Below the pieces are notes generated by a model. That model searched no databases, had not been told where the DNA came from, and worked only from the letters and a program-made list of their open reading frames with translations. From a virus: a stretch of 46,085 nucleotides of DNA. Positions 4,603-38,542 of this stretch are shown piece after piece. The stretch is from the IMG/VR virus record IMGVR_UViG_3300046006_003504, positions 1 to 46,085 of that record; one strand, written 5' to 3'. Position numbers and translations under genes: made by a program. Within the stretch, counting starts at the first letter, position 1; each line of letters begins with the position of its first letter.

Positions 4603-4611
4603 GTATTTCCT

Positions 4612-5915: not shown

Positions 5916-5916
5916 A

Positions 5917-7697: not shown

Positions 7698-7704
7698 GCT
7701 ATTA

Positions 7705-7733: not shown

Positions 7734-7744
7734 ACATTGACAAA

Positions 7745-7750
7745 TAAATA
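7745..7750 (+). promoter_or_regulatory. late-type TAAATA box, 5 nt before ATG 7756
   Basis: The box precedes the GNAT gene with no Shine-Dalgarno sequence between box and start codon, consistent with a leaderless late transcript. Confidence 0.65.
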
Positions 7751-7755
7751 GTTTG

Positions 7756-8301
7756 ATGATAATACATGCAATTACTGATTTGTCCAAAACTGCAACAGTG
7801 GATTTTTTAAAGGCAGGATTATCAAAAGAAACTGCTAATTTGGAAAACTATCATCCAGACTTTGCTGACAACCCTGCCAACTTATTCTACGTTCTTAAAG
7901 AAGGTCGGTTTATTAATGGCAACTATTTTGTTATGGAAGAAGATGGAAAGTATGTTGGCAGCGCAGGATGGAATCCCTATGGTGATGTTGCATTGGTATT
8001 AACTAGAGCATTCATTCCTGTAGCAGAACGCAGGAAATATAATATGGCACAGTATTTGCTACCTGTAATATTTGAACAAACCCTTGATTTTAAAAAACTT
8101 TGGATTACATGCAATGATTATAATTTTGCAATATACCAAGCACTAACTAGATTACAAGATGGAAAATCTGCAGGATTATTTTCAGCATGGCCACCTATCT
8201 ATAAAAAGTTTGTGCCAGTAGGCAAAAAGATAGTAAACTATACAGAACAGTATGTAGCAGAATATATAAGGAACAATGATGACACAACAAGAAAAAATTA
8301 A
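7756..8301 (+). CDS. GNAT-fold N-acyltransferase-like protein
   Basis: The 181-aa protein shows GNAT-type elements: a YVGSAGW strand, an AFIPVAERRKYNMAQYLLP stretch like the acyl-donor loop and helix, and a C-terminal NDYNFAIYQAL helix. Donor and acceptor are not readable. Its 3' end overlaps an acyl carrier protein gene by 26 nt, suggesting the donor may be acyl-ACP rather than acetyl-CoA, as in the FeeM N-acyl amino acid synthases. Start at ATG 7756 rather than an upstream TTG, because the late box is 5 nt away. Confidence 0.6.
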   Translation: MIIHAITDLSKTATVDFLKAGLSKETANLENYHPDFADNPANLFYVLKEGRFINGNYFVMEEDGKYVGSAGWNPYGDVALVLTRAFIPVAERRKYNMAQYLLPVIFEQTLDFKKLWITCNDYNFAIYQALTRLQDGKSAGLFSAWPPIYKKFVPVGKKIVNYTEQYVAEYIRNNDDTTRKN

Positions 8302-8506
8302 CTTTTTAAAAGAACTAATAATTGAACTTAAAGGCTCTAAGAATCATTTTGAAATTACCGAAGATGCTGAATTGTATACATTAGGATTGGACAGTCTAGA
8401 TATTGTCGAACTACAGATGATGTATGAAGATAAAACTAAAAGAGTTGCAAAAGATCCAACCTCTTCTATCAATACCGTAAAACAATTAATTGATCTGATG
8501 GTTTGA
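8276..8506 (+). CDS. acyl carrier protein
   Basis: At 76 aa it has the size and helical pattern of an ACP with the phosphopantetheine attachment motif DSL (Ser40) inside LGLDSLDIVEL. The serine would be modified by the host's holo-ACP synthase unless the phage encodes one elsewhere. AAGGAAC lies 5 nt before the ATG, inside the end of the GNAT gene. The C-terminal part is more basic (KTKRVAKD) than host FabF-pathway ACPs, suggesting a specialised carrier. It converges on the next gene with a 21-nt overlap. Confidence 0.88.
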   Translation: MMTQQEKINFLKELIIELKGSKNHFEITEDAELYTLGLDSLDIVELQMMYEDKTKRVAKDPTSSINTVKQLIDLMV

Positions 8507-9073
8507 CATATAGGGACCTAGTATTGCATTTGCTTCGTCCCATGTCAGTCTAACTCTTGTAGTTAAATTTACAAGAGGCATTGAATAACAATGTCTCGTG
8601 CTGTTTCCATTAATTAAAGTGTGGATGACCATCCCATTAATTAAATAGGCAGAACCGTTTGTCTCGGCTTCAAACAACACATCGCAATCTTCTTCATTAT
8701 AAATTCTTAGTTTTTCGCCAACCTTATTAGGTATAAAACGAGGAGCTTTATCTGGTTTAAGTGAATACCATTTCATTCTACTTTCACGTGAATTATAAAT
8801 TATGTTAATTTTAACACAATTAGTAATTCGTTTTGATACCTCACTGGCATAGCTAATATCTTTATGTAAGGTATATTTGTGATAAGGAAATGCACTGAAA
8901 AATCTACTGCAATTATCTAAACCAATATTTAGAGATGCTAACCAATCTCTGAACTCTATGTTTATATCAGAGATTGGTAACACTTTCTCAAGCGATAAGG
9001 TATTGTTAATATCTTGATAACATTGAACAAATAAATCAGGTAGTTGTAATTCTTTACAGTAGATGTTTTGCAT
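8486..9073 (-). CDS. AspH-like 2OG-Fe(II) oxygenase
   Basis: In this 195-aa protein H70-K-D72 is the probable iron motif, with distal H151 (MVIHTL) and R160 (STRHCYSM), all in the order of the AspH/cupin-type fold. It is divergent from its paralogues, so the fold call rests on motif spacing. It is transcribed leftward from a palindromic AT-rich region (9076-9088) shared with the PP-loop gene. Its 3' end overlaps the ACP gene tail to tail. Confidence 0.6.
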   Translation of the reverse strand: MQNIYCKELQLPDLFVQCYQDINNTLSLEKVLPISDINIEFRDWLASLNIGLDNCSRFFSAFPYHKYTLHKDISYASEVSKRITNCVKINIIYNSRESRMKWYSLKPDKAPRFIPNKVGEKLRIYNEEDCDVLFEAETNGSAYLINGMVIHTLINGNSTRHCYSMPLVNLTTRVRLTWDEANAILGPYMSNHQIN

Positions 9074-9106
9074 AATAAATATATTTATCTACCGGTTAAT
9101 TTCCCA

Positions 9107-10024
9107 ATGCACTACACAAAAAATAATCATTTATTCTATACCATTGGCAATCGAAAATTTGGTTATCGAGAAACGCCATACGAAAAATTTAAAGTATTCA
9201 CTGGAAAGATTGATCACGATACTTATAGGACTAGTAGCTGGAGAGAAGAATTACGCAAGACTGCTGATACTGTTTTAAAAGAGTATGGAAAAGATTTAGT
9301 GTTGTTTTTGAGTGGTGGCACAGACAGCGAAATTGTTCTTCGAAATTTTTTAGAAATTGGATTTAAGCCTCGCTGTGCTATTATAAAATTTAAGAATGAT
9401 TTTAACATCGGCGATGTTAACGAAGCAATTGAACTTACAAATCTTCTTGGTGTTCAACTAGAGATACTTGAATTTGATATCAAAGATTTTTGGAAATCTG
9501 GAGAAGCTCAAGCATTTTCTTCTAAGATTGATTGCACACAAATTACATACCTAATGGTATATTATCATATTAAAAAATTAGGATTCCCTGCTGTGATGGG
9601 GGGAGAACAATTTTTAAGAAGGCATGTAACAGCCGAAGGTAGTAAATGGTATCACTGTTTTAGAGAAAACGAAGATGCTAGTGCAATGCGATTTAGCGAA
9701 AAATATAATATACCGTTAGTAAATGAATGGTTTAGTTACACTCCAGAGATGATGTTATATTATCTTGAAGATCCTGATATACAACGATTAATTTCTGAAA
9801 GATACAATTATAAATTGACTTCTGTTAGTAGCAAGAATGTAATTTTAAAAAAATTGTATCCTGATATTAAGTTAAGAACTAAAACTCACGGCTTCGAACG
9901 ATTGCTAGGATTCAATGGTGAGGTTTATAATACATTACGATCAAAAACAATTCTTCGTCTCGAACCGTCATTGGATGGGATTTTTATTCCAGATTTAATT
10001 TTACAACTAAAAGGTGAAGTATGA
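9107..10024 (+). CDS. PP-loop ATPase, asparagine-synthetase C-domain-like
   Basis: SGGTDS at 69-74 is the pyrophosphate-loop that adenylates a carboxylate or carbonyl in asparagine synthetase, beta-lactam synthetase and tRNA-thiolation enzymes. The 305-aa protein lacks the N-terminal glutaminase domain of AsnB, so any nitrogen donor would be free amine or ammonia. I chose ATG 9107; an upstream TTG in frame at 9068 would run through the promoter region. It overlaps the next GNAT gene by 4 nt. A second, longer relative is at 36380. Confidence 0.75.
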   Translation: MHYTKNNHLFYTIGNRKFGYRETPYEKFKVFTGKIDHDTYRTSSWREELRKTADTVLKEYGKDLVLFLSGGTDSEIVLRNFLEIGFKPRCAIIKFKNDFNIGDVNEAIELTNLLGVQLEILEFDIKDFWKSGEAQAFSSKIDCTQITYLMVYYHIKKLGFPAVMGGEQFLRRHVTAEGSKWYHCFRENEDASAMRFSEKYNIPLVNEWFSYTPEMMLYYLEDPDIQRLISERYNYKLTSVSSKNVILKKLYPDIKLRTKTHGFERLLGFNGEVYNTLRSKTILRLEPSLDGIFIPDLILQLKGEV

Positions 10025-10608
10025 ATATAATTAGATTAACTAGCGAACATGCTACGGGAGTAAAATCGTTATTCTTTTCAAAGTTAGATTACATGGGCTC
10101 GGACAATTTTTATCAGGAAGATAAAAATTTTGAAGAAAGATTATATCAAATTTTTTGTGATACATATTTGACAGATCTTCAAAATTTTCATGCATTTGGA
10201 GTTGTTGACGAACACGGTAGTGTGCTTGCGCTTATGTCTTTTTACGAAGGCATTGACGATGCATCTTGGTATTTTACTAGTGGCCGCAGTCTGGGAAATA
10301 ATTTCTTACTAAAAGATATACTAGATGTTATTATGCAATATAATGAAAAGAATGGTCGATTAAAGTTCTACACAGTAATGAATGCAAAACATGCTCATCT
10401 AATGAGAAAGTTAGGATTTAGTAAAGTTGCCGCTGAAAGATATGACTACTTTGATGAGTATATTGTAGAACCACGTTGCAAAACATTCTTTGCCACCCAT
10501 TGGGAAATACTTTTTAAAAGATCATTGCTCCCTGTAACCAGTGTAGTAAGATGCACTTTTTTAAAACAAAAATATAGGAACACATTGCCTAACGGGGGAA
10601 ATATTTAA
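10021..10608 (+). CDS. GNAT-like acyltransferase
   Basis: The 195-aa sequence has a GNAT-like layout: an N-terminal helix pair, VVDEHGSVLALMSFY as the central strand pair, and NAKHAHLMRKLGFSKV matching the C-terminal helix and strand of acetyltransferases. The acyl-CoA loop is not well conserved. It is coupled to the PP-loop gene (ATGA overlap) and to the following desaturase, with a GGGGGA ribosome site between. A similar protein is at 18927. Confidence 0.55.
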   Translation: MNIIRLTSEHATGVKSLFFSKLDYMGSDNFYQEDKNFEERLYQIFCDTYLTDLQNFHAFGVVDEHGSVLALMSFYEGIDDASWYFTSGRSLGNNFLLKDILDVIMQYNEKNGRLKFYTVMNAKHAHLMRKLGFSKVAAERYDYFDEYIVEPRCKTFFATHWEILFKRSLLPVTSVVRCTFLKQKYRNTLPNGGNI

Positions 10609-11399
10609 TGTTTAGAAGTATATCAAAATCATTTTGGTTTCAGTTTGTTCCTGCAATAATTTTAGGTGTAATAACAATATGTTTACTAGCAACAGGTATT
10701 ATTCCTTTATACTATCTTATATTGACATTTATAATGTGGATCCTTGTTTCGGGATTGGGAATAGCAGTAGGATATCATAGAGTCTTTAGCCACAAGACAC
10801 ATAGCCTTTCTGTATGGAAAGAAAACATTATATTATTTTTTGCTGCGTTTGCAGCGCAAGGCGCTAGTATTTTTTGGGTGGCATTACATAGAGGATATCA
10901 TCATCCTTATGCTGATAAAGAAAGAGACATACATAGCCCAGTGATACATGGATGGCTTCATTCGTTTGTTGGATGGCAGTATAGAGTAACCGAAGTATCG
11001 CAGCCAGTGCATATTAAGTATGCAGTAGATTTATTAAGAAAACCTAACCATCTATGGTTCCATAAACATCAATTAAAAGTCCTATGGGGTGTGCCGTTGT
11101 TAGTTGCATTAGTCGACTGGAGACTAGCACTAACTGCTTTTTGTTTAGTATCGTTTATTGGAGTAATGCAGGATAATTTAGTAAATGTATTTGGACACCT
11201 AAAAGGTATAATAGGTTATAGAAATTTTGACACTAAGGATAACAGTCAAAACAATCTTATTTTAGGATATCTTGCTTGGGGGCAAGGATGGCATAACAAT
11301 CACCATCATTCACCTGGATCATACGACTTTGGCAAAGCAGTAAGTGGCAAGTGGTGGGAATGGGATTCTTGCAATATCTTTATCCCATTCTTAAAATAG
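10608..11399 (+). CDS. membrane fatty acid (delta-9-type) desaturase
   Basis: All three histidine boxes of the acyl-CoA/acyl-lipid desaturases are present: HRVFSH at 57-62, HRGYHH at 94-99 and HNNHHH at 229-234. Paired hydrophobic stretches at about 12-55 and 160-190 fit a four-helix membrane protein. It would use a di-iron centre, O2 and host electron carriers to insert a double bond. At 263 aa it is slightly shorter than bacterial DesC. GGGGGAAAT precedes the ATG. It ends 1 nt from the convergent radical SAM gene. Confidence 0.9.
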   Translation: MFRSISKSFWFQFVPAIILGVITICLLATGIIPLYYLILTFIMWILVSGLGIAVGYHRVFSHKTHSLSVWKENIILFFAAFAAQGASIFWVALHRGYHHPYADKERDIHSPVIHGWLHSFVGWQYRVTEVSQPVHIKYAVDLLRKPNHLWFHKHQLKVLWGVPLLVALVDWRLALTAFCLVSFIGVMQDNLVNVFGHLKGIIGYRNFDTKDNSQNNLILGYLAWGQGWHNNHHHSPGSYDFGKAVSGKWWEWDSCNIFIPFLK

Positions 11400-11400
11400 T

Positions 11401-12678
11401 TTAATAATCTTTGATATGCCTTACTAAGTCGGGACATAACTTTTTCCAACTCATAGATCTGTGATTATCTAAGAAGTTTGACCATTTAATAAACTTCTTT
11501 ATAAAGTCTACATTTTCTGGATTATTCAAGTTGTTTTGAAGATGTTTCATTGCAGATGCAATATGGGGAATATGTTTGTGCATGTCATATAATTCAATTA
11601 GTTCTTCTCTCATCTTAATTGGAAACATATTAAGATCTAAATGTTTTGGAACTACAATATAGCGCCACGCCGATACTAAGTTTTCTGATTTTGCCCATAG
11701 TTCATATTCTGGAAGATGCCATGCATTGTAAGGCATTAGACACCCAGTGATTGCAGTAATTGAACTTTTATTTTCAGTAATATTTTTATAAACACTTTTC
11801 CAATCTCCCGGAAATCTAATGTATTCATACACTTCGTTCATTCCGTCGAGACTAACTCTCATATCAATTTTTTTAAATTTTTCAAATTGTTTTGAAATCT
11901 TTGGATTAATAGCTGTTAAATTAGTATCATACTCCATTACTATATTTTCACTCAAGCCTGTTTCCACAAGATATTCTAACATCTCGCCGTGAAATGGAAC
12001 AAGCATAGGTTCTCCACCTGTAATATAGATATGTCTTAAATTAGGAGCTATTCTCTTAAATTGGGTGTGCCACTTAGGATCTTGATGCCAGTTTGTTTCG
12101 TCAATTACGAATCGTCCATTAGCCTTTTTTACAAATTCCACTCTTGGGAGATCTGCAATTTTAATTCCAGTTTCTCCAGTAAATTCCATAAACGGTTCAA
12201 CCCACTGCGAACTGTTGCTAGGGTCGCACTGAGCACACGTTAAATTACATAAGTTTCCTAACTTTAAGTCTAAACTAATTAACGGCTTCTTCCATATATT
12301 AGGATTTTCAACAACATTATTCCATTGTGGAACAGGTTCCGTTAATGATCGACTTAGAACTTTTGCATACCATTGCCGTCTTGTGCTTTGTAAATTTTTA
12401 GATAATGCTTTATCTCTGGACCAGCAAGTTGTACAATTTTTGTGCTGTTCTCCTTTTAGCTGGGACTCTCTAATTGAATTATGAAGCATACTATCTAATG
12501 CCTCTTCGATTGTGTGCGTTAATACATGCATAGCATTTCCATGTTGATCCTTAACTATTCCATTGTTAGTCTCTACATTATTAGAAATACAACATACTCT
12601 ATAGTAACCTAAATTATTAATTTCAATCGACGACCACGGAATGGAACAGAACGAATCAGGGAAAATATCTTTATTCAT
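11401..12678 (-). CDS. radical SAM protein with extra cysteines (twitch/SPASM-like)
   Basis: CNLTCAQC at residues 144-151 is the CxxxCxxC [4Fe-4S]/SAM motif, followed by YITGGEP. N-terminal C11, C29-C30 and C82-x2-C85 could bind auxiliary clusters, as in peptide-modifying or twitch-domain enzymes. The substrate is unknown. ATG 12678 (425 aa) is chosen over an upstream TTG because a TAAATA box lies exactly 5 nt before it. It is divergent from the oxygenase at 12708, sharing a 29-nt promoter region. Confidence 0.8.
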   Translation of the reverse strand: MNKDIFPDSFCSIPWSSIEINNLGYYRVCCISNNVETNNGIVKDQHGNAMHVLTHTIEEALDSMLHNSIRESQLKGEQHKNCTTCWSRDKALSKNLQSTRRQWYAKVLSRSLTEPVPQWNNVVENPNIWKKPLISLDLKLGNLCNLTCAQCDPSNSSQWVEPFMEFTGETGIKIADLPRVEFVKKANGRFVIDETNWHQDPKWHTQFKRIAPNLRHIYITGGEPMLVPFHGEMLEYLVETGLSENIVMEYDTNLTAINPKISKQFEKFKKIDMRVSLDGMNEVYEYIRFPGDWKSVYKNITENKSSITAITGCLMPYNAWHLPEYELWAKSENLVSAWRYIVVPKHLDLNMFPIKMREELIELYDMHKHIPHIASAMKHLQNNLNNPENVDFIKKFIKWSNFLDNHRSMSWKKLCPDLVRHIKDY

Positions 12679-12683
12679 AACAC

Positions 12684-12689
12684 TATTTA
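12684..12689 (-). promoter_or_regulatory. late-type TAAATA box, 5 nt before ATG 12678
   Basis: It drives the radical SAM gene leftward and lies back to back with the plus-strand box at 12698-12703. Confidence 0.6.
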
Positions 12690-12697
12690 CACTGTAA

Positions 12698-12703
12698 TAA
12701 ATA
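12698..12703 (+). promoter_or_regulatory. late-type TAAATA box, 4 nt before ATG 12708
   Basis: It drives the rightward oxygenase pair 12708-13846. Only CGGT separates the box from the start codon. Confidence 0.6.
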
Positions 12704-12707
12704 CGGT

Positions 12708-13295
12708 ATGATTTTTTCAACTGAGTTAATTAAAACACTTGACTGGACAGACACATTGCGTAACTGTTCAAATTTTGGAAGCCAATTTGTTGATGATCAG
12801 AAATGCTATGAAAATAGCATAAAAATAAAAGATACACACACTATTATAAAACGATTAGCTGGCACAGAAATCCCAACATGGATTAGAGACTGTTTTAATT
12901 TTGAAATACAAGTGTTGCAAGTGTTTGCAATTAATCCTAAATCAGTTGGACTAATTCATAAAGATGGCATTAATAGGTGTTGCGCCTTTAATATCCCTAT
13001 TAAAAATTGTGATCAAGGATACATGCAATGGTTCGAGCCTGCTGCGTTTTCTGAATTCTTTATTGGCAACGATTATACTACTATACGAATTACCAATGAA
13101 GAAATTAACAAAGGAGAAAAAATTGATATTCCTCCATTGCACTCTACGTTGTTAACATCGCCTGCTATTGTGAATACAGATGTATGGCATCGAGTAGATA
13201 ATCGATCAAGTGACAATGCCAGATGGATGTTAAGTCTTAGATTTAAGGATAATCCGTCATTTGACACTCTTAATAGTAAGTTACATATAGCATGA
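12708..13295 (+). CDS. AspH-like 2OG-Fe(II) oxygenase
   Basis: The 195-aa protein has H84-K-D86, a CCAFNIPI strand, H161 in VWHRVDN and an arginine pair in RWMLSLRF (R172, R178). This arrangement matches the small AspH-like oxygenases found across this window. It overlaps the next oxygenase gene by 4 nt, so the two are probably made together, perhaps acting on the same substrate. The start is fixed by the late box. Confidence 0.7.
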   Translation: MIFSTELIKTLDWTDTLRNCSNFGSQFVDDQKCYENSIKIKDTHTIIKRLAGTEIPTWIRDCFNFEIQVLQVFAINPKSVGLIHKDGINRCCAFNIPIKNCDQGYMQWFEPAAFSEFFIGNDYTTIRITNEEINKGEKIDIPPLHSTLLTSPAIVNTDVWHRVDNRSSDNARWMLSLRFKDNPSFDTLNSKLHIA

Positions 13296-13846
13296 ATTAT
13301 TTTAAATTCCCTATTGATTTACACTTTGATAAAATTGCATTTCTTGATAACCGTCAAGTTGTTCCCCTTGTAACAGATATAAATGAGTTTGCACTACCGT
13401 TGTTTAATCATAACGGGGTAATACCAGAGTTTTTTAAAACACTCGAAATACTATTTGACTCAGTAATAACCAAACCTAGGATATTTGTTTATCCACCCCA
13501 TTTTAATATGACTACTTCTCATATCGACGGATATGCTAATGAGCCAGTTAGATGGGCACTAAACATTCCGCTGTTTGGAACAAAAGGATCTAAAATGAAT
13601 TGGTTTGAAATAGACAATACTATTAACGATCTACAATCATACGGTGATCGATCAAGGGCATTAATTTACGATATAACAACGGACTGTATTGATTCTTTAG
13701 AATTATTAGAACCGTGTATAGTGCGAACTGATATTCCACACAATGTGGTTAATTTAAAATCATCACCTAGGGCAATTCTTAGTGTTCGATTTGAAAGAAG
13801 TATCGTTGATACTATTGAGACAATGCATAAAAAGTTTAATTGCTAG
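13292..13846 (+). CDS. AspH-like 2OG-Fe(II) oxygenase
   Basis: This paralogue-like partner of the preceding gene (184 aa) has H77-I-D79, RWALNIPLF, IPHNVV with H150, and R160 in RAILSVRF. Pattern and length are like the 12708 product though overall identity by eye is low. It ends tail to tail with the 13836 gene, overlapping 11 nt. Confidence 0.7.
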   Translation: MNYFKFPIDLHFDKIAFLDNRQVVPLVTDINEFALPLFNHNGVIPEFFKTLEILFDSVITKPRIFVYPPHFNMTTSHIDGYANEPVRWALNIPLFGTKGSKMNWFEIDNTINDLQSYGDRSRALIYDITTDCIDSLELLEPCIVRTDIPHNVVNLKSSPRAILSVRFERSIVDTIETMHKKFNC

Positions 13847-14456
13847 TTGTTAGCAACAAGTGCAGTCTATATTGTGTTCCTAGGTGTACTACAGAATGTT
13901 TGATATCTCTAGGATTCAAATACCAAATTCTTCCATCAGCTGGCATATGACATAGCGACATATCTCTTGGCGCTGTTTCAAATACCCAAAGACAATTTTC
14001 ATCGGTAATTATTGGTAAATGATATCGATGCGCAGTATGCATGTCACGATGCAACTTATAAGAGTGTTTTGCCCTTAACCATATTAACTGACACCTACCT
14101 TGAAATTTATTTGTAAACTTGCTATTGTGCATAGTCAATACATTATCAATAACTTCTTTAAGATACAACCCATTTAACTCACTTAAAAATTCTGAAAAGT
14201 CTTCTTCTTTAACGCCTGCTTTTTCTGTAGCAATATGATCGTCTCGATATTTTTTCCACCTGTCGACTCCAATAAGACCAGGTAAGTGTGTTAGATTAAA
14301 TGTAGTAGCAGACTGTTTTAATAATTCGTTATGAAATAGAGAATGAGAAATTCCCAATCTTTCAAACAGTATATTAATTGATTCTTCTATTTTTGTTGTA
14401 TTAAAAGTTAGCTCAACAGGAAAACAATATGTATCAATCTTATCAGTTATTATCAT
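13836..14456 (-). CDS. aspartyl/asparaginyl beta-hydroxylase-like oxygenase
   Basis: The 206-aa protein has the fullest AspH signature here: LHRD with H136 and D138, RYHLPI with R144 and H146, CHMPAD at 169-174, H187 in IKHSV and R197 in YRLHL. It is the last gene of a four-gene leftward operon starting at 16582 (TauD, then three AspH-like genes), with overlaps of 4, 4 and 14 nt. These overlaps argue for stoichiometric co-expression. Confidence 0.75.
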   Translation of the reverse strand: MIITDKIDTYCFPVELTFNTTKIEESINILFERLGISHSLFHNELLKQSATTFNLTHLPGLIGVDRWKKYRDDHIATEKAGVKEEDFSEFLSELNGLYLKEVIDNVLTMHNSKFTNKFQGRCQLIWLRAKHSYKLHRDMHTAHRYHLPIITDENCLWVFETAPRDMSLCHMPADGRIWYLNPRDIKHSVVHLGTQYRLHLLLTTSN

Positions 14457-15207
14457 TACATATCCTATTCTTTATATCTTCTTTAAATTTGCCATCTATT
14501 CTTACTGAGAAACTAAAATACGGAACAGCATCAGTTCCATGAAAATCCATTTCATTAAACCAAACGAATTTTTTATCAGTAAGCGTGTAAATTTTTTGAT
14601 TAGTATCTTCATCATACACAAATATCTTTTTAGTAGTATTAGCAGTAGTGAACCAGATAAAATCGTCTTTAGGCTTCTCTATTCGTTGTTGTTCTGAACT
14701 TGCATCATAATGCGGTACTGTTTGATTATTTGCTTCTGTCATGAACAACATTACTCTGCCCACTTCCTCAAACGGCATTTGTTCTATAAGTTTTATTAGT
14801 GAAGGGAAATGTTGAGCATTTTCAGTCCAATAACAATCGCTAGCTACTGCTTTATTCTTTATTCCGCTGCGTTCAATTCGTTTATTAGTTTTAAGATATA
14901 CTGACCAAAACGGATGTGCTACTGGATAGATACATGTCATGAATTTTATCTTTGCTTCAGTAGTTGGCAAATTATCAAATATCTCAATCTGTCTAGTAGT
15001 TAAATATTTTTCTCTATTTTTTATAAACGGAGTTATTTCTTCGTTTTCCCATCTATGGTGAACTCCGCTAGAAACAAACTTCTTATCCCAAGTTGACTTA
15101 GCAATACCTTCACAAATATCCGTATGTAATTCTTCCCAGTCAACAGCTGGCACAAAATTATCTAAATATAAAAATGGAGATTTGTTTTTTCCCAATCCTG
15201 TAATCAT
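14443..15207 (-). CDS. 2OG-Fe(II) oxygenase-like protein
   Basis: VPHYDA gives H166 and D168 in the chosen frame start, with DFHGT (H223) and SVRIDG (R236) as distal ligands. At 254 aa it is longer than the neighbouring AspH types, with an N-terminal extension of about 120 residues. I chose ATG 15207 over a TTG at 15222 because GGAG precedes it and the ATG overlaps the upstream stop as ATGA. Confidence 0.65.
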   Translation of the reverse strand: MITGLGKNKSPFLYLDNFVPAVDWEELHTDICEGIAKSTWDKKFVSSGVHHRWENEEITPFIKNREKYLTTRQIEIFDNLPTTEAKIKFMTCIYPVAHPFWSVYLKTNKRIERSGIKNKAVASDCYWTENAQHFPSLIKLIEQMPFEEVGRVMLFMTEANNQTVPHYDASSEQQRIEKPKDDFIWFTTANTTKKIFVYDEDTNQKIYTLTDKKFVWFNEMDFHGTDAVPYFSFSVRIDGKFKEDIKNRICNDNN

Positions 15208-16582: not shown

Positions 16583-16583
16583 G

Positions 16584-16589
16584 TAAATA
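16584..16589 (+). promoter_or_regulatory. TAAATA box upstream of the 16615-22537 rightward cluster
   Basis: This plus-strand box overlaps the opposing one (16588-16593). Its transcript would have about 20 nt of leader including AGGGAAG before ATG 16615, so this gene is not leaderless. Confidence 0.5.
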
Positions 16590-16593
16590 TTTA
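16588..16593 (-). promoter_or_regulatory. late-type TAAATA box, 5 nt before ATG 16582
   Basis: It drives the TauD/AspH operon leftward. With the overlapping plus-strand box it forms a compact divergent late promoter. Confidence 0.6.
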
Positions 16594-16614
16594 TGAATTA
16601 ATATAGGGAAGCAT

Positions 16615-18603: not shown

Positions 18604-18621
18604 CATAGGGGGAGACTTCAA

Positions 18622-18930
18622 ATGCTTAAAAAGATTTATAATATATTTAGACCAGATGCAAGTGCAGAATTTTGGCACCTTATACCTGAAAATAGGGAAT
18701 GGGCAGAATCTGTCGAAAAAGAAATGATCGAAAAAGGATTAATGATTTCTTGTGAAAACACAATATCCGATGATGGTCTATTGTTTACCAGAACAACATT
18801 ATTTCAAAATTTAGATGGCTTCCATCGGATGAAAGAAGCACTTAAACATCTTTCTTACGATCAAGATAGGATTGACTACAATACTGCTAATTCTCATATT
18901 TTCTTTTCATCTGACGAAGAGATAGAATGA
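18622..18930 (+). CDS. hypothetical 102-aa protein
   Basis: Family unknown. It is acidic overall with an amphipathic N terminus and FTRTTLFQNLDGFHRMKEAL in the middle, suggesting a small alpha/beta fold. A strong AGGGGGAGA ribosome site precedes the ATG. It overlaps the next GNAT-like gene by 4 nt and is part of the same rightward operon. Confidence 0.6.
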   Translation: MLKKIYNIFRPDASAEFWHLIPENREWAESVEKEMIEKGLMISCENTISDDGLLFTRTTLFQNLDGFHRMKEALKHLSYDQDRIDYNTANSHIFFSSDEEIE

Positions 18931-19562
18931 ACAATCTAGGTTATCTGATCAAGCAAATCGAAACCTTAGAAGAGTATGCAGCAGTAGAAAAATTATGGAA
19001 TTCAAAAAATAAATTAATGCGTGAGGAAGGGGCGTCTCTTGTTAAGCACCTTCCGTTGTTTAAAGTAGTAGGAGCCTATTTAAACGATGAATTAGTTGCT
19101 ACTTTGAAATACCATTATTGGAATAATTTTCCGTATTACTCAATAGGCGCATTATATACAAAGAGTGGTTTAGTAAATTTATATGATTTTTCTAACCCAA
19201 ACAATCCCATTCCTTATATTACAGATTTCATTTTAGATAAACTTGAATCTGAAGGATACTACACTTGGTATTATGTTAGAACGCTAGGAAAAGCATATGC
19301 CCGTATTCAACAAAACAATCACGATTTATTATCCTGTACAAAATTAGGACATAGGTATAGGCGAGACATTGAAGAAGTTATTCTTCCAAACGAAATTTCA
19401 AAATTTAAAATACATAACAATCTTATTTTAAATAAGCAGTGGGCGAGACCTATGGTTGTTGTTAGATGCTCACTAGACAATCAATATAGGCCCAATGGCG
19501 ATATATTCAACAACGAATTTAATTTTTTAAAAAATGTTAAAGAAATTACAACGACACACTGA
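18927..19562 (+). CDS. GNAT-like acyltransferase
   Basis: The 211-aa protein shares the layout of the 10021 product: an N-terminal EEYAAVEKLW helix, a VVGAYLNDELVATLKYHYW strand pair and a C-terminal LGHRYRR segment. The acyl-donor loop is poorly conserved, so the fold assignment is tentative. It lies between a small unknown gene and a methyltransferase, with overlaps on both sides. Confidence 0.5.
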   Translation: MNNLGYLIKQIETLEEYAAVEKLWNSKNKLMREEGASLVKHLPLFKVVGAYLNDELVATLKYHYWNNFPYYSIGALYTKSGLVNLYDFSNPNNPIPYITDFILDKLESEGYYTWYYVRTLGKAYARIQQNNHDLLSCTKLGHRYRRDIEEVILPNEISKFKIHNNLILNKQWARPMVVVRCSLDNQYRPNGDIFNNEFNFLKNVKEITTTH

Positions 19563-20286
19563 ATTTGGAAACCAAAAATACAGAGATTATATTCAACCAG
19601 CTAATCAAGATGTATTTGAAATATTCAATGATCGATTATCGATCATTGATCCAGAATGGTATACTAAAGAAATATTAGACTTCGGTTGTAATGTAGGACA
19701 TTTGTTAACCACATCAGCGGGTAAAATTGCCCCTAAGAAATATACAGGTGTTGATATACATAAAAAATCTTTAGAAATTGCAGAAAAATTAAATCCTGAT
19801 GCATCGTGGATACACTATAATGGATATAACTCAACATTTAATCCGGGTGGAAATATTGATGAGTTTTTTACTGTTGAAACAAAACCTGAAATTATTATTG
19901 CATACGGGGTATTCACACATTGTGATTTTAAGGAAACTAATAGATTAATAGCTAACCTAAAGTCTATGTTATCAGATAACGGTATTATTGTGTTTTCAAT
20001 CTGGGAAGATGTGCATGTCGGTGGGTATTTGCATTTCTTAAAAAACTGCTTTGACTTAAAATTACATGCTAACCCAGCGTTTATAAATGCAAAATTTGAT
20101 AAATCAATGTATCTTATAAATCGTGAATCTGCAATTTTTGATAAAGAAGAAACAGGATATACTGATCTTAATTGGTTAGAAGCATTTTATAATAAAGAAT
20201 ACATACTAAAATCAATTCCTAATACAGAGTTTTTAAATGGCACATATTCCCACCACTCTATTTTCTTAACAAAAAATGAAAAATAA
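19534..20286 (+). CDS. class I SAM-dependent methyltransferase
   Basis: LDFGCNVGH at 48-56 is motif I, YTGVDIHKKSLEIA is the acidic strand-2 motif, and AYGVFTHCDF corresponds to motif post-I. The 250-aa protein resembles the 40973 product (shared TGVDxxxxS, xIHYNxYN and YxVFTH blocks), so the two are likely paralogues. It overlaps the GNAT-like gene by 29 nt and the first desaturase of the tandem by 11 nt. Confidence 0.82.
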   Translation: MLKKLQRHTEFGNQKYRDYIQPANQDVFEIFNDRLSIIDPEWYTKEILDFGCNVGHLLTTSAGKIAPKKYTGVDIHKKSLEIAEKLNPDASWIHYNGYNSTFNPGGNIDEFFTVETKPEIIIAYGVFTHCDFKETNRLIANLKSMLSDNGIIVFSIWEDVHVGGYLHFLKNCFDLKLHANPAFINAKFDKSMYLINRESAIFDKEETGYTDLNWLEAFYNKEYILKSIPNTEFLNGTYSHHSIFLTKNEK

Positions 20287-21016
20287 TTTTAATAAATTAT
20301 GGGAATTAACTTCTAAAAAATTTCTTGCATTAACTATACTGTCGCATGTTAGTTTAATGTATGTGCTAATATTGCTTCCTGTCTTACATTTACTATGTGT
20401 GATTACTATTGCAATTTTAATACTGCTATTTGCCAGTGTGCCAGTGTATCACAGATTCCTAAGTCACAGGAGCTGGAATTGTCCTCGGTGGTACGAAATT
20501 TTTGCATCAATATTTGGAGTCTTTAGTTTTACTGGATCCACTATATCTAGAACAGTTACGCATAGGCAACATCATGCATTTGCTGATACTGATAAAGATC
20601 CACATAGTCCTTTATTTTCTCCTTGGTATAAAATATACTTTCCATTTTTTAATCAAAAGAGAATCAATAGTAACCTGGCCAAGGACTTAATATTGGACCC
20701 GCTACATCGAACTATTCATAAATTTTATCTATTAATTATTTTAACAGGGTATACAGTAGTGTGGATGTTATTTGATTTCAATTGGGCAATAACTTTAACC
20801 ATTGCACCAGGATCATTATGCTGGGCAAATGTGTGTATCCTTAATATTTTTGGACACCGAACAACAGGTGGCACAAATAGTAGCATCCTATCTTTTATAA
20901 CACTGGGTGAGGGCAATCATAAATATCATCATGCCAGTCCGACACAATCTAATACTGGGAACGATAGATTTGATATAGCATATCTACTAATAAAATTAAT
21001 TAAGAAAACCAAGTGA
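20276..21016 (+). CDS. membrane fatty acid desaturase (tandem copy 1)
   Basis: Histidine boxes HRFLSH (59-64), HRQHH (96-100) and HKYHH (215-219) are all present. Hydrophobic segments at about 16-58 and 150-185 fit the desaturase topology. At 246 aa it lacks any cytochrome b5 or electron-transfer domain, so host redox partners would be required. Its TGA stop overlaps the GTG start of copy 2. Confidence 0.88.
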   Translation: MKNNFNKLWELTSKKFLALTILSHVSLMYVLILLPVLHLLCVITIAILILLFASVPVYHRFLSHRSWNCPRWYEIFASIFGVFSFTGSTISRTVTHRQHHAFADTDKDPHSPLFSPWYKIYFPFFNQKRINSNLAKDLILDPLHRTIHKFYLLIILTGYTVVWMLFDFNWAITLTIAPGSLCWANVCILNIFGHRTTGGTNSSILSFITLGEGNHKYHHASPTQSNTGNDRFDIAYLLIKLIKKTK

Positions 21017-21753
21017 GTCCTTACAAACAAACATTATATGTAGTATGGGGGAACCAAATACTTTTTGTATTAGGAGTAATACTACTACAGGCTTGGTGGA
21101 CTATTCCATTAGCTATACTTGGGATGTATACGTTTGCTATCTTAAGTGAGATATCAATACATAGATATTATACTCATAAAAGTTATACAACATCATCTTT
21201 TAAAGAAAAGTTGCTTCGTGTCTTTGCAATACTAGCAGGGCAGGGCGCAACAATATCTTGGGTTACAGTGCATCGAACACATCATGCTTTTGAAGATACT
21301 GAAAAAGACCCACATAGTCCAATGTTTCATCCTCGGTGGAAAATATTACTAGGACTGTATCCACAGGACTATAAAAAGACATTGGTAATAGATTTAATGA
21401 GAGGCCCTAGTTGGAAATATTTTGTATTTGAAAATAATTACTACTGGTTGATGTGGACTGCAATTTGGAGTGGGACATTTTTAATACACCCTGTGTTGTT
21501 CTATTTCATAGTATCTGGGTCTGCAATGTGGTATTTGGCAACTAGTCTAGTTAATATTGCATCGCACGGAAATATGTTAGGGGAAAGAAAATTTACTGAT
21601 ACAGTTGCAACTAATAGTCCGCTATTAAATTTAATTACAGCAATAGGAAATCATAACAATCATCACAAATATCCTAACAGTTTTACCTATTCAATTAATG
21701 GAGAAATAGATGTCTGCGGCTATGTCATTAAAAGATTCTTTTCAAAAAAATAG
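21013..21753 (+). CDS. membrane fatty acid desaturase (tandem copy 2)
   Basis: HRYYTH (50-55), HRTHH (87-91) and HNNHH (214-218) are intact. It starts with GTG at 21013, overlapping the preceding stop as GTGA. It shares EDTEKDPHSP with copy 1's ADTDKDPHSP but differs widely elsewhere, so these are not recent duplicates. It overlaps copy 3 by 44 nt. Confidence 0.88.
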   Translation: MSPYKQTLYVVWGNQILFVLGVILLQAWWTIPLAILGMYTFAILSEISIHRYYTHKSYTTSSFKEKLLRVFAILAGQGATISWVTVHRTHHAFEDTEKDPHSPMFHPRWKILLGLYPQDYKKTLVIDLMRGPSWKYFVFENNYYWLMWTAIWSGTFLIHPVLFYFIVSGSAMWYLATSLVNIASHGNMLGERKFTDTVATNSPLLNLITAIGNHNNHHKYPNSFTYSINGEIDVCGYVIKRFFSKK

Positions 21754-22537
21754 TCCAATTATTAAGTATAGTATACTATGGCTAATCGGTATGTTTGGTT
21801 TTGTAGGATCGATATGTTATACTATATATTCTCAGGAATTTACATATTGGGCAATTTCATATTTGTATTTTAGAGTTCTGTGGTTTTTTACAAATGGAAT
21901 TGCACTGCATAGGTATTTTGCACATAAAGCATTTAAGACAGGACCTGTTCGACATAAATTTTTAGCGTGGATTACAGTCCTTGGAGGAGTAGGTAGTCCG
22001 TTTACTTGGGCTATACATCATAGACACCACCATCTTCATTCAGACATGCCTAACGATTTACACAGCCCAAAAGACAGCATAATAAAATCAATGCTAGGAA
22101 CCTGGGCAATTGAACCAATGTCTTGGTGGGCAGGCAAAGGAGTAAACACTATTCCCAAAGATTTGTATAGAGACAAAACAGTAATGTTTATTAATACTCA
22201 CTATTATAAAATTTGGACATTTATATTCTTTTCATCTCTCCTAATTGCAGGATGGCAGTTTTGTTTATTTTTTATAATGGCGCCCATTGGTTGGAATTTA
22301 TTTCACGGTGCAATAACAAATTGTCTCAACCATATGACTATCCCCGGGTCTTATAGAAATTACTCAACTAACGATCAGAGTCAAAACCACAAATGGATCA
22401 ACATTTATCTATTAGGTGAGGGTTTACATAACAATCATCATGCACATCCTGGAAATTACAATCAGGCACATGCACCTGGAGAGTTTGATTTCGGTGCATG
22501 GGTAATTAAGAAATTCTTTGCAATAAATGAAACCTGA
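21710..22537 (+). CDS. membrane fatty acid desaturase (tandem copy 3)
   Basis: HRYFAH (67-72), HHRHH (103-107) and HNNHH (240-244) are intact. ATG 21710 is preceded by GGAG at good spacing; an internal ATG at 21722 is possible. At 275 aa it is the longest copy. Its LHSPKDS and QAHAPGEFDFG segments set it apart from copies 1 and 2, so it may act at another acyl position. Confidence 0.88.
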   Translation: MSAAMSLKDSFQKNSPIIKYSILWLIGMFGFVGSICYTIYSQEFTYWAISYLYFRVLWFFTNGIALHRYFAHKAFKTGPVRHKFLAWITVLGGVGSPFTWAIHHRHHHLHSDMPNDLHSPKDSIIKSMLGTWAIEPMSWWAGKGVNTIPKDLYRDKTVMFINTHYYKIWTFIFFSSLLIAGWQFCLFFIMAPIGWNLFHGAITNCLNHMTIPGSYRNYSTNDQSQNHKWINIYLLGEGLHNNHHAHPGNYNQAHAPGEFDFGAWVIKKFFAINET

Positions 22538-24053
22538 TCTTATATTATTAACAAATACCAGGGGCAGCGTATGGCAACGATCTATAGGTGCATATCAAGT
22601 TGCACATCATTGTCGGCAACACGGTTTCACTGTTCAGGTAATCGATTTTACTGATTTTTTCTCCGAGGAGGAATTAATTGATGTTGTATCAAATTTATCA
22701 TCTAATAATCTATTAGCTGTAGGACTATCGACAACGTTTTATTCTAAACAGGATGACACAAATCCGCTGTTAGCTAAAAATGCAGGCTCTAATTTAAGAG
22801 GTAGTGCAGACATCGATGGAAAAATTTCAAATTTATTTAAACATGTTAAACAACATTTCCCCACGGTGAAAATTATTGCAGGCGGTGCAAATAGTTGGCA
22901 ACTTGAAAATAATAAATTATTTGATGCGGTATTCCACGGATATGCAGAAGAGTCAGTAGCCTCCTATCTTAAAAGTATTCAAACTAAACAAAGAACTAGA
23001 ATACATCTTAAAAAGAACGGTATTGATATAATTAATGGAGACCTTGAAACTTTTGATATTGAATTGCTAGAACATCGCTGGTTGCCAGAAGATATTGTTC
23101 TTCATAACGAAACTTTACCTATTGAAATCGGCCGAGGGTGTATTTTTAAATGCAAATTTTGTAGCTATCCATTAAACGGAAAACAAAAGTTAGACTACAT
23201 TAGAGACTATAGCAAGATAGTAGAAGAAATGGAATATAACTACGCTATGTTCGGTACAACTAACTATTTCTTTACCGATGATACTTTTAATGATTCTACA
23301 GAAAAGATTGAATCTTTGCATAAAGTATTCACTTCATTATCTTTTAAAATTAATTTTGTATGTTATCTTCGAGCAGACCTGATGTATAGGTTTCCGAAAC
23401 AAATTCAATTATTAAAAGAAATGGGATTAAGTTCAGTTGTGCTAGGAATAGAATCTCTACATCAAGGTGCTGCTAAGTCTGTTGGTAAAGGTATGAATGT
23501 TGAAAAAATGAAACAGTTCTTGTTAGACCTGTATTATAAACACTGGGAAGAAAAAGTATCAATTACCTGTTCGATGATTATAGGGTTACCAGGAGAAGAT
23601 GAGGAACATGTTCGATCTGCATTTAATTGGTTTAGAACTGAAGGTAAAGATTTGTGTGATAGCTGGTGGCCACTTACTATTAGTACAGAAGGGCACTATT
23701 TGTCACAGTTTGATAAAGAACATAAGAAGTTTCAATATGATCTATCCCAAGGTGAACCTTGGGTGAGCCCTATTATGAAATACAGCGATGCATATCGATT
23801 ATCCCAAGAGTTCAATTCAATAGGAATGAATCACGATAATCATCCCGGTTCGTGGATGATTATGGCTCTACGCAGTTACGGTTATTCTCAGGAAGAATTA
23901 ATGAACTGGCAAGTTAAAGATATGCCATGGAAGGCACTTTTGAAAAAAAGAATAAGAATGTTTCAAGAGTATAAAACATCTTTAAATTCATTTTTAATCC
24001 AATCTGCAAATGCAGAATGTGATCGAGGTCCCCCGTGTATATCTCTTGCTTGA
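22527..24053 (+). CDS. B12-binding-domain-like radical SAM enzyme
   Basis: The 508-aa protein has an N-terminal alpha/beta domain (about 1-150) of the kind that binds cobalamin in this class, though the classical DxHxxG is not evident. CIFKCKFC at 205-212 is the radical SAM cluster motif, followed by FTDDTF and SVVLGIESL. Relatives methylate, oxidise or rearrange small molecules and lipids. It is last in the rightward operon and overlaps the convergent SGNH gene by 91 nt. Confidence 0.82.
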   Translation: MKPDLILLTNTRGSVWQRSIGAYQVAHHCRQHGFTVQVIDFTDFFSEEELIDVVSNLSSNNLLAVGLSTTFYSKQDDTNPLLAKNAGSNLRGSADIDGKISNLFKHVKQHFPTVKIIAGGANSWQLENNKLFDAVFHGYAEESVASYLKSIQTKQRTRIHLKKNGIDIINGDLETFDIELLEHRWLPEDIVLHNETLPIEIGRGCIFKCKFCSYPLNGKQKLDYIRDYSKIVEEMEYNYAMFGTTNYFFTDDTFNDSTEKIESLHKVFTSLSFKINFVCYLRADLMYRFPKQIQLLKEMGLSSVVLGIESLHQGAAKSVGKGMNVEKMKQFLLDLYYKHWEEKVSITCSMIIGLPGEDEEHVRSAFNWFRTEGKDLCDSWWPLTISTEGHYLSQFDKEHKKFQYDLSQGEPWVSPIMKYSDAYRLSQEFNSIGMNHDNHPGSWMIMALRSYGYSQEELMNWQVKDMPWKALLKKRIRMFQEYKTSLNSFLIQSANAECDRGPPCISLA

Positions 24054-24727
24054 TCTAACTCTTTCCATCTATAAGTTTTACATACAGGATTTTCAATAGG
24101 TCTAAAATCAAAATCTAAACCAAATTCTATAATAGGTATATTGTTTAAATGAACAATATCTAACATCAATTCTCTAAATTGATTTCCTAGGGATTGCCAA
24201 TACTCTAATTCCTTCCCCGCTAGTAGTAAATCAATTCCTTTAGGATTGTTGAACCATACTCCTACCCTGTCTAAATCTTTCCAAAGAAAGAATCTATCAT
24301 TTTCTGTGCGCTGACATACAATTAGTTTAGGCTTTTTATTTGGAAACGCTCTAAGCCAGGCAGCAATATTGGCGGAAATTAAATCATTGCCGGATCCACC
24401 AATTCCCATATTATATATAGGACAAGTAAACGGTAAATGATTCCAGTATACCAATTCAATAGGTAATCCTACTCCCTGGGTATGACTACACCCGGCTATC
24501 AATATATAATTATTATCTTCTAATTCATCGAGATTTAGTTGTGTTCGATGCCCTAGTTTATTAAAAGTGTATGATATATCAGAATGCTGCCATGGCCAAT
24601 TTTTTCCTAGCTTAGTTGTTTGCTGATTAAAATTATTTAAATCGTCTGTTCCAAACCATAACTGTGTAGTGTTTACGCAGTCGAACCCTATAATTCCATT
24701 TTGTTTAATTAAAGACACACTGCTCAT
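23963..24727 (-). CDS. SGNH/GDSL-like hydrolase
   Basis: GCSHT at 79-83 supplies the nucleophile Ser81, GGSGND the oxyanion-hole Gly/Asn block, and DIHGGPRSH near the C terminus the Asp-His pair. The 254-aa enzyme would add or remove acyl groups, for instance on a glycan. Two relatives lie at 42580 and 44479. The last 91 nt are antisense to the end of the radical SAM gene; the catalytic DxxH block lies at the edge of this overlap, so the overlap appears genuine. Confidence 0.75.
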   Translation of the reverse strand: MSSVSLIKQNGIIGFDCVNTTQLWFGTDDLNNFNQQTTKLGKNWPWQHSDISYTFNKLGHRTQLNLDELEDNNYILIAGCSHTQGVGLPIELVYWNHLPFTCPIYNMGIGGSGNDLISANIAAWLRAFPNKKPKLIVCQRTENDRFFLWKDLDRVGVWFNNPKGIDLLLAGKELEYWQSLGNQFRELMLDIVHLNNIPIIEFGLDFDFRPIENPVCKTYRWKELDQARDIHGGPRSHSAFADWIKNEFKDVLYS

Positions 24728-25332
24728 AACGTTTTATATATGTTCGCCGCTAGTCCAATAGAGGTTAGATACTCAGATAATCTTGAGATTAGATGTGCAG
24801 ATAATTTCTGTTGTAAATCTTTATATGAAACTTTTTTAAAATATACAACAACTGATTTCCTAACCTTTGATCCGTTTACGCTTCTGACTCTATGGGGGAC
24901 CTGGGGGTTTACAATTGCCGGAAATGTGTTACAAGTAAATTTAGGTAATATATTATCTGGATTATACCATATGGTATAATCAATGATTGAGCGATTGCTA
25001 TGCACTGGATTTAACCCGTCCTTATCCCAAAAGTCCAACACACTATCTCCTTCTATTAACCAATTAATACCATGCGTTCTTGCACTTGACCGAAAGAAAA
25101 AGTTACCGTCTGTGTGTGGAGGGTTCTCTTGTGCAGTAGTAAGATCCCATTGCCAGATAACTACATTTTCTATTTCCAGTCCTGCAGTTTCTAACAATTC
25201 TATAACTGAAAGTTTTAATATTTCTTTAGAAAAGACGGAAAATTCATCACTACCAATCTTTTCGAAAATCTGAGGATCGGCTAATGGATTCTTATCTATT
25301 TTAATAGGTGTATAACAGTTTGAAGATTTCAT
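24724..25332 (-). CDS. AspH-like 2OG-Fe(II) oxygenase
   Basis: PPHTDGN gives H73 and D75, VPHRVRS gives H147 and RKSVVVYF gives R158. The 202-aa protein has an N-terminal part unlike the other copies. It is in a leftward three-gene operon (26018 to 23963) with ATGA overlaps on both sides. Confidence 0.7.
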   Translation of the reverse strand: MKSSNCYTPIKIDKNPLADPQIFEKIGSDEFSVFSKEILKLSVIELLETAGLEIENVVIWQWDLTTAQENPPHTDGNFFFRSSARTHGINWLIEGDSVLDFWDKDGLNPVHSNRSIIDYTIWYNPDNILPKFTCNTFPAIVNPQVPHRVRSVNGSKVRKSVVVYFKKVSYKDLQQKLSAHLISRLSEYLTSIGLAANIYKTL

Positions 25333-26018
25333 ATTTCAAAAACATGATCAAAAAAATTATGATCGGTATTCCAGGTATTTATTGCCTCACTAGGATTTTG
25401 CAGGTTGTTTTTCAAAGTAGGTTTTACGTTTTTAAACAACACGTCTATTGTATTTTTTGTTAAAATTAATTCCAACCAATCTTTTCTAATTATATCAAAT
25501 ATAATATGTGCCCGAATCCCTGTGCCTAAGTTCAAAGACCTATGTTGCTTTATGTTATTAAACTCGTATATCCCGTATTTTTCTAAATGGTATCTAGCAT
25601 TCTCTATGTCTAAAAATGCATTAATGTTTGTAGTTATAGGTATGTGAATTCTACGACTAAATCTGTGGAAGACTTTAGGATCAATATGCCATCCTTGTTC
25701 TACCCCACCCGGGCATACGCTTAACTCACTTTTAAGAATTTTATAATTAGGAAACAAGTGCATACAACAATCTATAATATTGTATGACTCTTTCTCTATT
25801 AAATTGTCATCGGTGTCATACTCTTTTGACGCAACGCCTTGTATTTCTCCATAATATCGTTTTTGATATAATACGGGAGATTCGGCTAACGCACGATCTC
25901 GAACCAGTTGTTTTTTGTTCCAATTATGGGATACAATTAGATTTTCAAAATATATCAAAAAATCTAGCATATCATTTGGCAATGTATCTATTTTTAGTAT
26001 GTTTGTATCTACCCACAT
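25329..26018 (-). CDS. aspartyl/asparaginyl beta-hydroxylase-like oxygenase
   Basis: H111-I-D113 in GWHIDPK, RRIHIPI (R123, H125), H144 in RYHLEKY, H159 and R169 in IRAHIIFD follow the AspH order. At 229 aa it has an N-terminal extension of about 90 residues. It is first in its operon, with a late box 4 nt before the ATG. Confidence 0.75.
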   Translation of the reverse strand: MWVDTNILKIDTLPNDMLDFLIYFENLIVSHNWNKKQLVRDRALAESPVLYQKRYYGEIQGVASKEYDTDDNLIEKESYNIIDCCMHLFPNYKILKSELSVCPGGVEQGWHIDPKVFHRFSRRIHIPITTNINAFLDIENARYHLEKYGIYEFNNIKQHRSLNLGTGIRAHIIFDIIRKDWLELILTKNTIDVLFKNVKPTLKNNLQNPSEAINTWNTDHNFFDHVFEI

Positions 26019-38382: not shown

Positions 38383-38387
38383 GCACT

Positions 38388-38537: not shown

Positions 38538-38542
38538 GATAA

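Follow-up and report, generated by a model that had tools for sequence, protein, structure and literature searches.

A conserved GNAT-ACP-PP-loop-GNAT-desaturase cassette with a variable shell of oxygenases in an uncultured phage

Biosynthetic-like gene clusters have already been proposed for phages, and the cassette described here is a new variant of them. It belongs to an enzyme-rich island at positions 7756-26018 of a 46,085-base virus-collection record (IMG/VR record IMGVR_UViG_3300046006_003504; this whole stretch is referred to below as the window). The cluster of cyanophage S-SSM6a, with its carbamoyltransferases, halogenase and 2-oxoglutarate (2OG) oxygenases (Iyer et al. 2021, PMC7824862), is one of the closest described systems. 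It resembles the island in being phage-borne, in having several 2OG oxygenases and in being predicted to yield a secondary metabolite or capsule decoration. It differs in that no acyl carrier protein (ACP), PP-loop enzyme, GNAT pair or desaturase has been described in it, and in having a halogenase, a HemK-like methylase and phosphatases. The window has one carbamoyltransferase, located outside the island, and no halogenase among its Pfam-scanned open reading frames (ORFs). Pelagibacter phage Mosig EXVC030M (MT647606) likewise brings together AspH, fatty-acid desaturase, TauD, GNAT, methylase, radical S-adenosylmethionine (SAM) and carbamoyltransferase genes. However, in the 40 kb of it that were read, hidden Markov models (HMMs) of the window proteins detected neither a PP-loop nor an ACP homologue; this region instead holds aminotransferases, nitroreductases and heme genes and lies beside tail fibres. 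Finally, 2OG oxygenases are common in cyanophages, with up to five per genome (PMC3037559).

Several characterized systems resemble the cassette in part. In the FeeL/FeeM and SbzG/SbzI pairs (PMC6331615), a GNAT takes an acyl group from a carrier, the step that we propose here for a GNAT that is adjacent to an ACP and in one locus (L027) fused with it; however, those pathways use AMP-ligases, and the core GNATs could not be placed with them by sequence. Viral fatty-acid desaturases (PMC7300359) are SCD1-like and found in phages, as is ours, but are single genes rather than parts of an operon with ACP, PP-loop and GNAT genes. The ornithine-lipid genes olsB/olsA (PMC11631085) include a GNAT-type N-acyltransferase that uses acyl-ACP. 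Unlike them, the island has no OlsA or PF13444 match and does have a PP-loop enzyme. The island also shares an AspH-type hydroxylase and a di-iron membrane oxygenase with the ornithine-lipid tailoring genes olsC and olsE. The JamABC alkyne cassette shares with the core the combination of an ACP and an FA_desaturase-type membrane desaturase and differs in having a fatty acyl-ACP ligase where the core has a PP-loop ATPase and GNATs. No acyl-AMP ligase of the JamABC type was found beside the ACP and desaturase; AMP-binding ligases occur in only two of 30 related records, and in G019 the ligase is some 190 kb from the core. We found no description of a GNAT-ACP-PP-loop-GNAT-desaturase cassette in the open-access literature.

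The island combines a conserved, virus-only core, encoding GNAT1, ACP, PP-loop enzyme, GNAT2 and desaturase, with a shell that varies and that contributes oxygenases, radical SAM enzymes and further desaturases. A sequence-only reading of this DNA had described the gene set correctly, and each element that it named is present at its position; the division into core and shell had been overlooked. The five core genes are as follows.

7756..8301, plus strand: GNAT-fold acyltransferase 1 (GNAT1, core gene g); GNAT topology in the AlphaFold2 (AF2) model of a homologue, PDB matches all GNATs
8276..8506, plus strand: ACP (core gene c); PF00550 above cut-off, PHROG 5934 (acyl carrier protein), NCBIfam ACP matches below cut-off
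9068..10024, plus strand: PP-loop ATPase (core gene P); SGGTDSE motif, AF2 pLDDT 92, true start probably M14
10021..10608, plus strand: GNAT-like acyltransferase 2 (GNAT2, core gene G); assigned from sequence pattern, 4-bp overlap with the PP-loop gene
10608..11399, plus strand: membrane desaturase (core gene F); PF00487 1.2e-9

The existence of the core is supported by its recurrence. When the PP-loop protein and the relatives found first were used to search IMG/VR, 25 loci resulted, most of them ordered GNAT1, ACP, PP-loop, GNAT2, desaturase, so that GNAT1 is the first core gene in most relatives. The order is fixed, with gene overlaps of 1-4 bp, in about 20 contigs whose PP-loop proteins have a median identity of 58%. 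The 561-bp gap between the ACP and PP-loop genes of the window exists because an oxygenase gene on the opposite strand (8486..9073) intervenes. The same cassette was recovered independently by searches seeded with GNAT1 (42 loci) and with the desaturase (79 loci); the GNAT1 search contributed 23 contigs beyond those of the PP-loop search, and 21 of these have the PP-loop gene and/or the desaturase. After clustering at 90% identity, GNAT2 lies immediately 3' of the PP-loop gene in 59 PP-loop clusters, with a desaturase within 1.2 kb in 53, GNAT1 upstream in 41 and a recognisable ACP in 22; these counts are lower bounds, as many loci stop at contig edges, and a set seeded with the PP-loop protein is not independent of it. 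Within 10 kb of these 59 cores there are on average 3.2 oxygenases (range 0-10). A second PP-loop-GNAT2 pair on the same contig as the core of L027 (19377-20790) suggests a duplication of the pair.

Cassette-bearing contigs reach 524,565, 452,799, 264,637 and 248,884 bases, and a T4-type gp23 capsid gene is present in nine carriers: G007, G024, G019, G030 (524 kb), G032, G038 (452 kb), G039, G040 and G042. The carriers appear to be large, uncultured T4-like phages from metagenomes. No gp23 major capsid protein was seen among the annotated ORFs of the 46-kb window, and nothing else in its whole length was recognisable as a structural gene. A scan of 20 records for Terminase_6C gave no match in any of them and was uninformative.

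Co-inheritance extends beyond the core. The closest relative, G002 (80 kb), has reciprocal best matches for 17 island genes inside 13.5 kb, rearranged in order and strand, most at 55-80% identity and two at 27-33%. Throughout, codons of the window and G002 differ most at third positions and least at second positions, a pattern that points to purifying selection. The group B oxygenase paralogues of the window (see below) are only 12-19% identical to the one at 8486, far below the identities of G002 orthologues, which argues that most of them had already diverged from one another when the lineages of the two phages separated. Oxygenases also cluster in or near the island beyond random placement in three relatives whose sequences were covered in full or almost in full (G019, p = 0/10000; G017, p = 0.0014; G002, p = 0.0011), the null being uniform placement that ignores gene duplication. 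In G017, the oxygenase cluster starts about 13 kb from the core. Shell gene sets vary greatly from phage to phage, the largest desaturase expansion seen being that of L033, in which eight desaturase genes surround one B12-radical SAM gene. The scatter of the genes among relatives that would have spoken against a functional set did not appear, and the concerted action proposed earlier is now supported by the fixed order and overlaps of the genes, by their co-inheritance and by the signs of purifying selection. Among 50,697 phage records, megablast of the island and tblastn of its TauD, PP-loop and B12-radical SAM proteins gave no match. A match in 'Acinetobacter phage MD-2021a' was rejected, its annotated surroundings looking bacterial.

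Of the core proteins, the PP-loop enzyme is the most distinctive. It has 318 residues, with a SGGxDS-type motif (SGGTDSE) at residue 82. The top PDB matches of its model are MnmA, asparagine synthetase B and beta-lactam synthetase, and the highest TM-scores (0.44-0.48, a loose match below 0.5) are to beta-lactam synthetase, so that the modelled family appears nearest to the C-domains of asparagine and beta-lactam synthetases. The protein has no Pfam match and lacks the N-terminal glutaminase domain of asparagine synthetase B, for which the position of the motif leaves no space. Among viral proteins, it is best matched by unnamed entries from uncultured Caudovirales, one of which is labelled asparagine synthase. 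The family was absent from the 50,697 phage records (tblastn) and from 84,980 species genomes in two pattern-based scans, which distant relatives could escape; within the databases searched, it thus appears to be virus-only.

The remaining core proteins belong to better known families. The ACP is assigned to acyl carrier proteins by its PP-binding domain and DSL serine, and its DSLD serine motif is invariant across 14 aligned homologues. The desaturase is classed by its three His boxes, also invariant in 14, as an SCD1-like membrane fatty-acid desaturase; the nearest solved structures are acyl-CoA desaturases of the stearoyl-CoA type (4ymk, 4zyo). In L027, GNAT1 and ACP are fused in frame, a single case in which a lost stop codon or a sequencing error is possible. 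This homologue was folded with GNAT rows only, the ACPs having misaligned to the fusion; its GNAT part (pLDDT about 92) has GNAT topology and all its PDB matches are GNATs, the ACP part being of low confidence, with no docking read. Profiles of GNAT1 and GNAT2 found nothing significant among PDB sequences. None of the three GNAT-like ORFs (7756, 10021, 18927) has a Pfam match, and GNAT1 has no NCBIfam match either; GNAT2 is classed as a GNAT by its sequence pattern.

ACPs carry acyl thioesters, SCD1-like enzymes desaturate acyl chains, and 2OG oxygenases and radical SAM enzymes act in tailoring. PP-loop enzymes of the asparagine-synthetase type convert a carboxylate through acyl-AMP into an amide, and GNATs transfer acyl groups to amines. 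Based on these established roles, it is tempting to propose that the island encodes a phage acyl-transfer and tailoring pathway leading to an acyl-amide or aminolipid-like compound. We infer its reaction class, step order, acyl chain, amine and purpose, and put the probability of this reading at roughly 0.4. The host would arm the phage ACP with phosphopantetheine and provide the acyl chain, into which one or more of the SCD1-like desaturases would introduce double bonds. The PP-loop enzyme may activate a carboxylate as acyl-AMP, to be joined to an amine or handed to the carrier thiol, and the GNATs may pass thioester-bound acyl groups on to an amine. The AspH-like, TauD and group B oxygenases, the radical SAM enzymes and the methyltransferase would then hydroxylate or methylate the product. 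Most likely this is a fatty-acyl amide or an aminolipid-like compound, unsaturated and hydroxylated, that is synthesised in the infected cell. It might either alter the host envelope or have a role as a small molecule, and the variable shell would alter its decoration between phages. This proposal is supported by the fixed, overlapping core and its recovery in the GNAT1 search, by the GNAT1-ACP fusion, the invariant serine motif of the ACP and the kinship of the desaturase with acyl-CoA desaturases, by the co-inheritance and the clustering of oxygenases in relatives, and by the nearness of the PP-loop fold, by TM-score, to the amide-forming beta-lactam and asparagine synthetases. There are also precedents for carrier proteins as the acyl donors of GNATs (FeeM, SbzC and SbzI; PMC6331615) and for acyl-ACP used in aminolipid synthesis (OlsB; PMC11631085).

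Several observations weigh against this proposal. The detection of an ACP in just 22 of the 59 cores implies that a dedicated carrier is not obligatory. TM-scores of the PP-loop model to known proteins do not reach 0.5, and its matches further include LarE and tRNA thiolases; GNAT1 resembles ordinary acetyltransferases. In the 30 related records, the core has neither a dedicated acyl-AMP ligase nor an ACP synthase linked to it, and none of the records yielded a phosphopantetheinyl transferase (ACPS), so that loading of the ACP is assumed. The sequences are, moreover, metagenomic fragments. A more ambitious idea is that large T4-like phages possess a complete virus-specific acyl-ACP/PP-loop pathway of their own, which would use a ligase family confined to viruses in these searches and make a natural product peculiar to these phages, a lipid or lipoamide with modular oxygenase decoration; we hold this to be less likely than not. 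Of the products envisaged in the sequence-only reading, a peptide-like one has gained no specific support, there being no nonribosomal peptide synthetase, ribosomal peptide (RiPP) precursor or AMP-ligase beside the core. That the set builds and decorates an acylated compound is something we too infer, and a surface moiety is possible.

If the surface is the target, the enzymes might act on lipopolysaccharide or capsule, altering both the sugars and the acyl or amino groups that these carry, and the infected cell would thereby shut out rival phages, an effect already suggested for clusters of cyanophages. A carbamoyltransferase (1448-2902), glycosyltransferases (4612, 6675) and SGNH-like ORFs do adjoin the island or lie in it, the S-SSM6a cluster has been proposed to serve capsule decoration or secondary metabolism (Iyer et al. 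2021, PMC7824862), and the Mosig island of AspH, desaturase, TauD, GNAT and radical SAM genes adjoins tail-fibre genes. However, the glycosyltransferases are outside the conserved core and found in only some islands (judged with the model of the one at 6675), and the substrates of membrane desaturases are acyl chains rather than sugars; we therefore regard surface decoration as unlikely. Another explanation sees no pathway at all: unrelated auxiliary genes would pile up where the genome tolerates them, each working on its own, desaturases for instance on membrane fluidity and oxygenases on 2OG turnover. Such roles have been attributed to single viral desaturases (PMC7300359) and, as regards 2OG/nitrogen status, to cyanophage 2OG oxygenases (PMC3037559), and the strong differences in shell among phages would be expected. 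Against this, core order and overlap are fixed across proteins about 58% identical and many shell genes are co-inherited, which makes a chance collection rather unlikely.

We consider it more improbable still that the PP-loop, GNAT, radical SAM and 2OG enzymes act on macromolecules, that is, on tRNA, protein or phage DNA. This would suit the 26 tRNA genes of the window, the MnmA, TtuA, LarE and QueC-like proteins among the PP-loop matches, and the prediction that many jumbo-phage GNATs modify protein or DNA (PMC7824862). Yet an ACP and integral-membrane desaturases inside one overlapping operon fit it poorly, and the PP-loop model is closer by TM-score to amide synthetases than to tRNA enzymes. 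Phage auxiliary genes are known as mimics of single host enzymes; a multi-enzyme cassette present in dozens of viral contigs and in none of the cellular genomes sampled suggests that phages are capable of running a biosynthetic pathway of their own. If the acyl-transfer and tailoring pathway is real, it offers an explanation for many unexplained AspH/TauD-like oxygenases of aquatic phages. The cassette is a small, defined gene set, five genes plus one or two oxygenases, open to expression and assay.

The shell of the window comprises the following genes.

8486..9073, minus strand: 2OG oxygenase, group B; HxD..H..R, 69% identical orthologue in G002
11401..12720, minus strand: twitch-domain radical SAM enzyme; NF033640 4e-76, PF04055
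12708..13295, plus strand: 2OG oxygenase, group B; iron-triad signature, 55% orthologue in G002
13292..13846, plus strand: 2OG oxygenase, group B; iron-triad signature, best G002 match 33%
13836..14456, minus strand: AspH-like 2OG oxygenase, group A; PF05118 2.5e-4, just under cut-off, 70% orthologue in G002
14443..15222, minus strand: probable 2OG oxygenase, group D; H-x-D...H...R by eye, weak HMM link to 17183, 61% orthologue in G002
15204..15743, minus strand: 2OG oxygenase, group B; iron-triad signature, 66% orthologue in G002
15740..16582, minus strand: TauD-family 2OG oxygenase; PF02668 8e-11, 63% orthologue in G002
16615..17190, plus strand: conserved protein, family unassigned; no match in Pfam, PHROGs or NCBIfam, 60% orthologue in G002
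17183..17767, plus strand: AspH-like 2OG oxygenase, group A; PF05118 6e-7, 72% orthologue in G002
17764..18603, plus strand: TauD-family 2OG oxygenase; PF02668 5.7e-16
18622..18930, plus strand: small ORF; no family, no homologue in the first set of loci compared
18927..19562, plus strand: GNAT-like protein, relative of 10021; cross-match in iterated HMM
19534..20286, plus strand: SAM methyltransferase; PF08242 3e-10
20276..21016, plus strand: membrane desaturase 2; PF00487 2e-7
21013..21753, plus strand: membrane desaturase 3; His boxes, iterated HMM match, 68% orthologue in G002
21710..22537, plus strand: membrane desaturase 4; PF00487 1e-13
22527..24053, plus strand: B12-binding radical SAM enzyme; PF04055 3e-18, B12-binding 1.6e-4 (below cut-off), 63% orthologue in G002
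23963..24727, minus strand: SGNH-like protein; no Pfam match, paralogue of 44479-45225
24724..25332, minus strand: 2OG oxygenase, group B; iron-triad signature
25329..26018, minus strand: AspH-like 2OG oxygenase, group A; PF05118 0.0018, below cut-off

The inventory given in the sequence-only reading holds throughout: eleven 2OG-Fe(II) oxygenase-type ORFs in the island and, with those at 3025, 5367 (DUF6445) and 43442 outside it, fourteen in the window; an ACP with a DSL motif; four desaturases (10608, 20276, 21013, 21710), all with HxxxxH, HxxHH and HxxHH boxes; two radical SAM enzymes, of twitch (11401) and B12-binding (22527) type; three GNAT-like proteins; and one each of PP-loop enzyme, methyltransferase and SGNH-like protein. 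As had been claimed, no structural phage gene interrupts the island (no structural Pfam or PHROG match). Its G+C content is 32-35%, as against 37-45% in much of the flanks.

By iterated HMM, the eleven oxygenases fall into four groups: AspH-like group A (13836, 17183 and 25329, plus 3025 outside the island), group B (8486, 12708, 13292, 15204 and 24724), TauD (15740 and 17764) and 14443 alone. In an alignment of 38 phage proteins of group B, with a mean column identity of 20%, the sole invariant columns are H70-x-D72 and H151, and R160 is conserved in at least 90%; this pattern of H/D/H and Arg is read as an Fe/2OG signature. Profile-profile comparison links group B to the AspH group with 95% probability. 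Among 26 sequences of group A, both histidines are invariant and the aspartate is present in at least 90%; the nearest solved structures are a 'beta-hydroxylase' (7v4f), proline hydroxylases and AspH. In the Pfam scan, 15740 and 17764 (PF02668) and 17183 and 3025 (PF05118) passed the cut-off, 13836 and 25329 fell just under it, and none of the five group B members, 14443 or 43442 had a match. PHROGs gave no match for six oxygenases, the PP-loop enzyme and two unassigned ORFs. The least secure calls are 14443 and 43442, in which the H-x-D...H pattern was recognised by eye, with a weak HMM link in addition for 14443.

The protein at 16615-17190 (plus strand) is kept in G002 and in further islands despite its lack of a family match, and recurring unassigned neighbours of the core offer few Pfam or PHROG clues. 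To the left of the island, a minus-strand block at 3527-7787 comprises dCMP deaminase, glycosyltransferase and DUF6445 genes; L018 and L011 have a syntenic block next to their islands, with identities of 51-76%. To its right are a stand-alone HD_4 domain protein (27404-27907, minus strand), HD_4 being the domain of RelA/SpoT-type ppGpp hydrolases, and a TctC protein (32311-33282, minus strand; PF03401 5e-25) that is 56% identical to one in L001 near GNAT1-ACP-PP-loop genes. At 36380-38433 (minus strand), a second PP-loop protein is coupled to a TctC-type solute-binding protein that carries a signal peptide. Such pairs, in which the two genes often overlap by 4 bp, also occur in L013, L018, L022, L027, L048, L062, L122, L124, L138 and L142 (12 distinct pairs), the solute-binding partners being phage-encoded proteins of the periplasmic, carboxylate-binding kind. 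The right end of the window (38460-45888) is occupied by the 26 tRNA genes, some of them duplicated (three Pro-TGG, three Met-CAT). Scattered among them are a methyltransferase gene, two SGNH-like ORFs and the gene of the fourteenth oxygenase. The SGNH-like paralogues at 23963-24727 and 44479-45225 are 20 kb apart.

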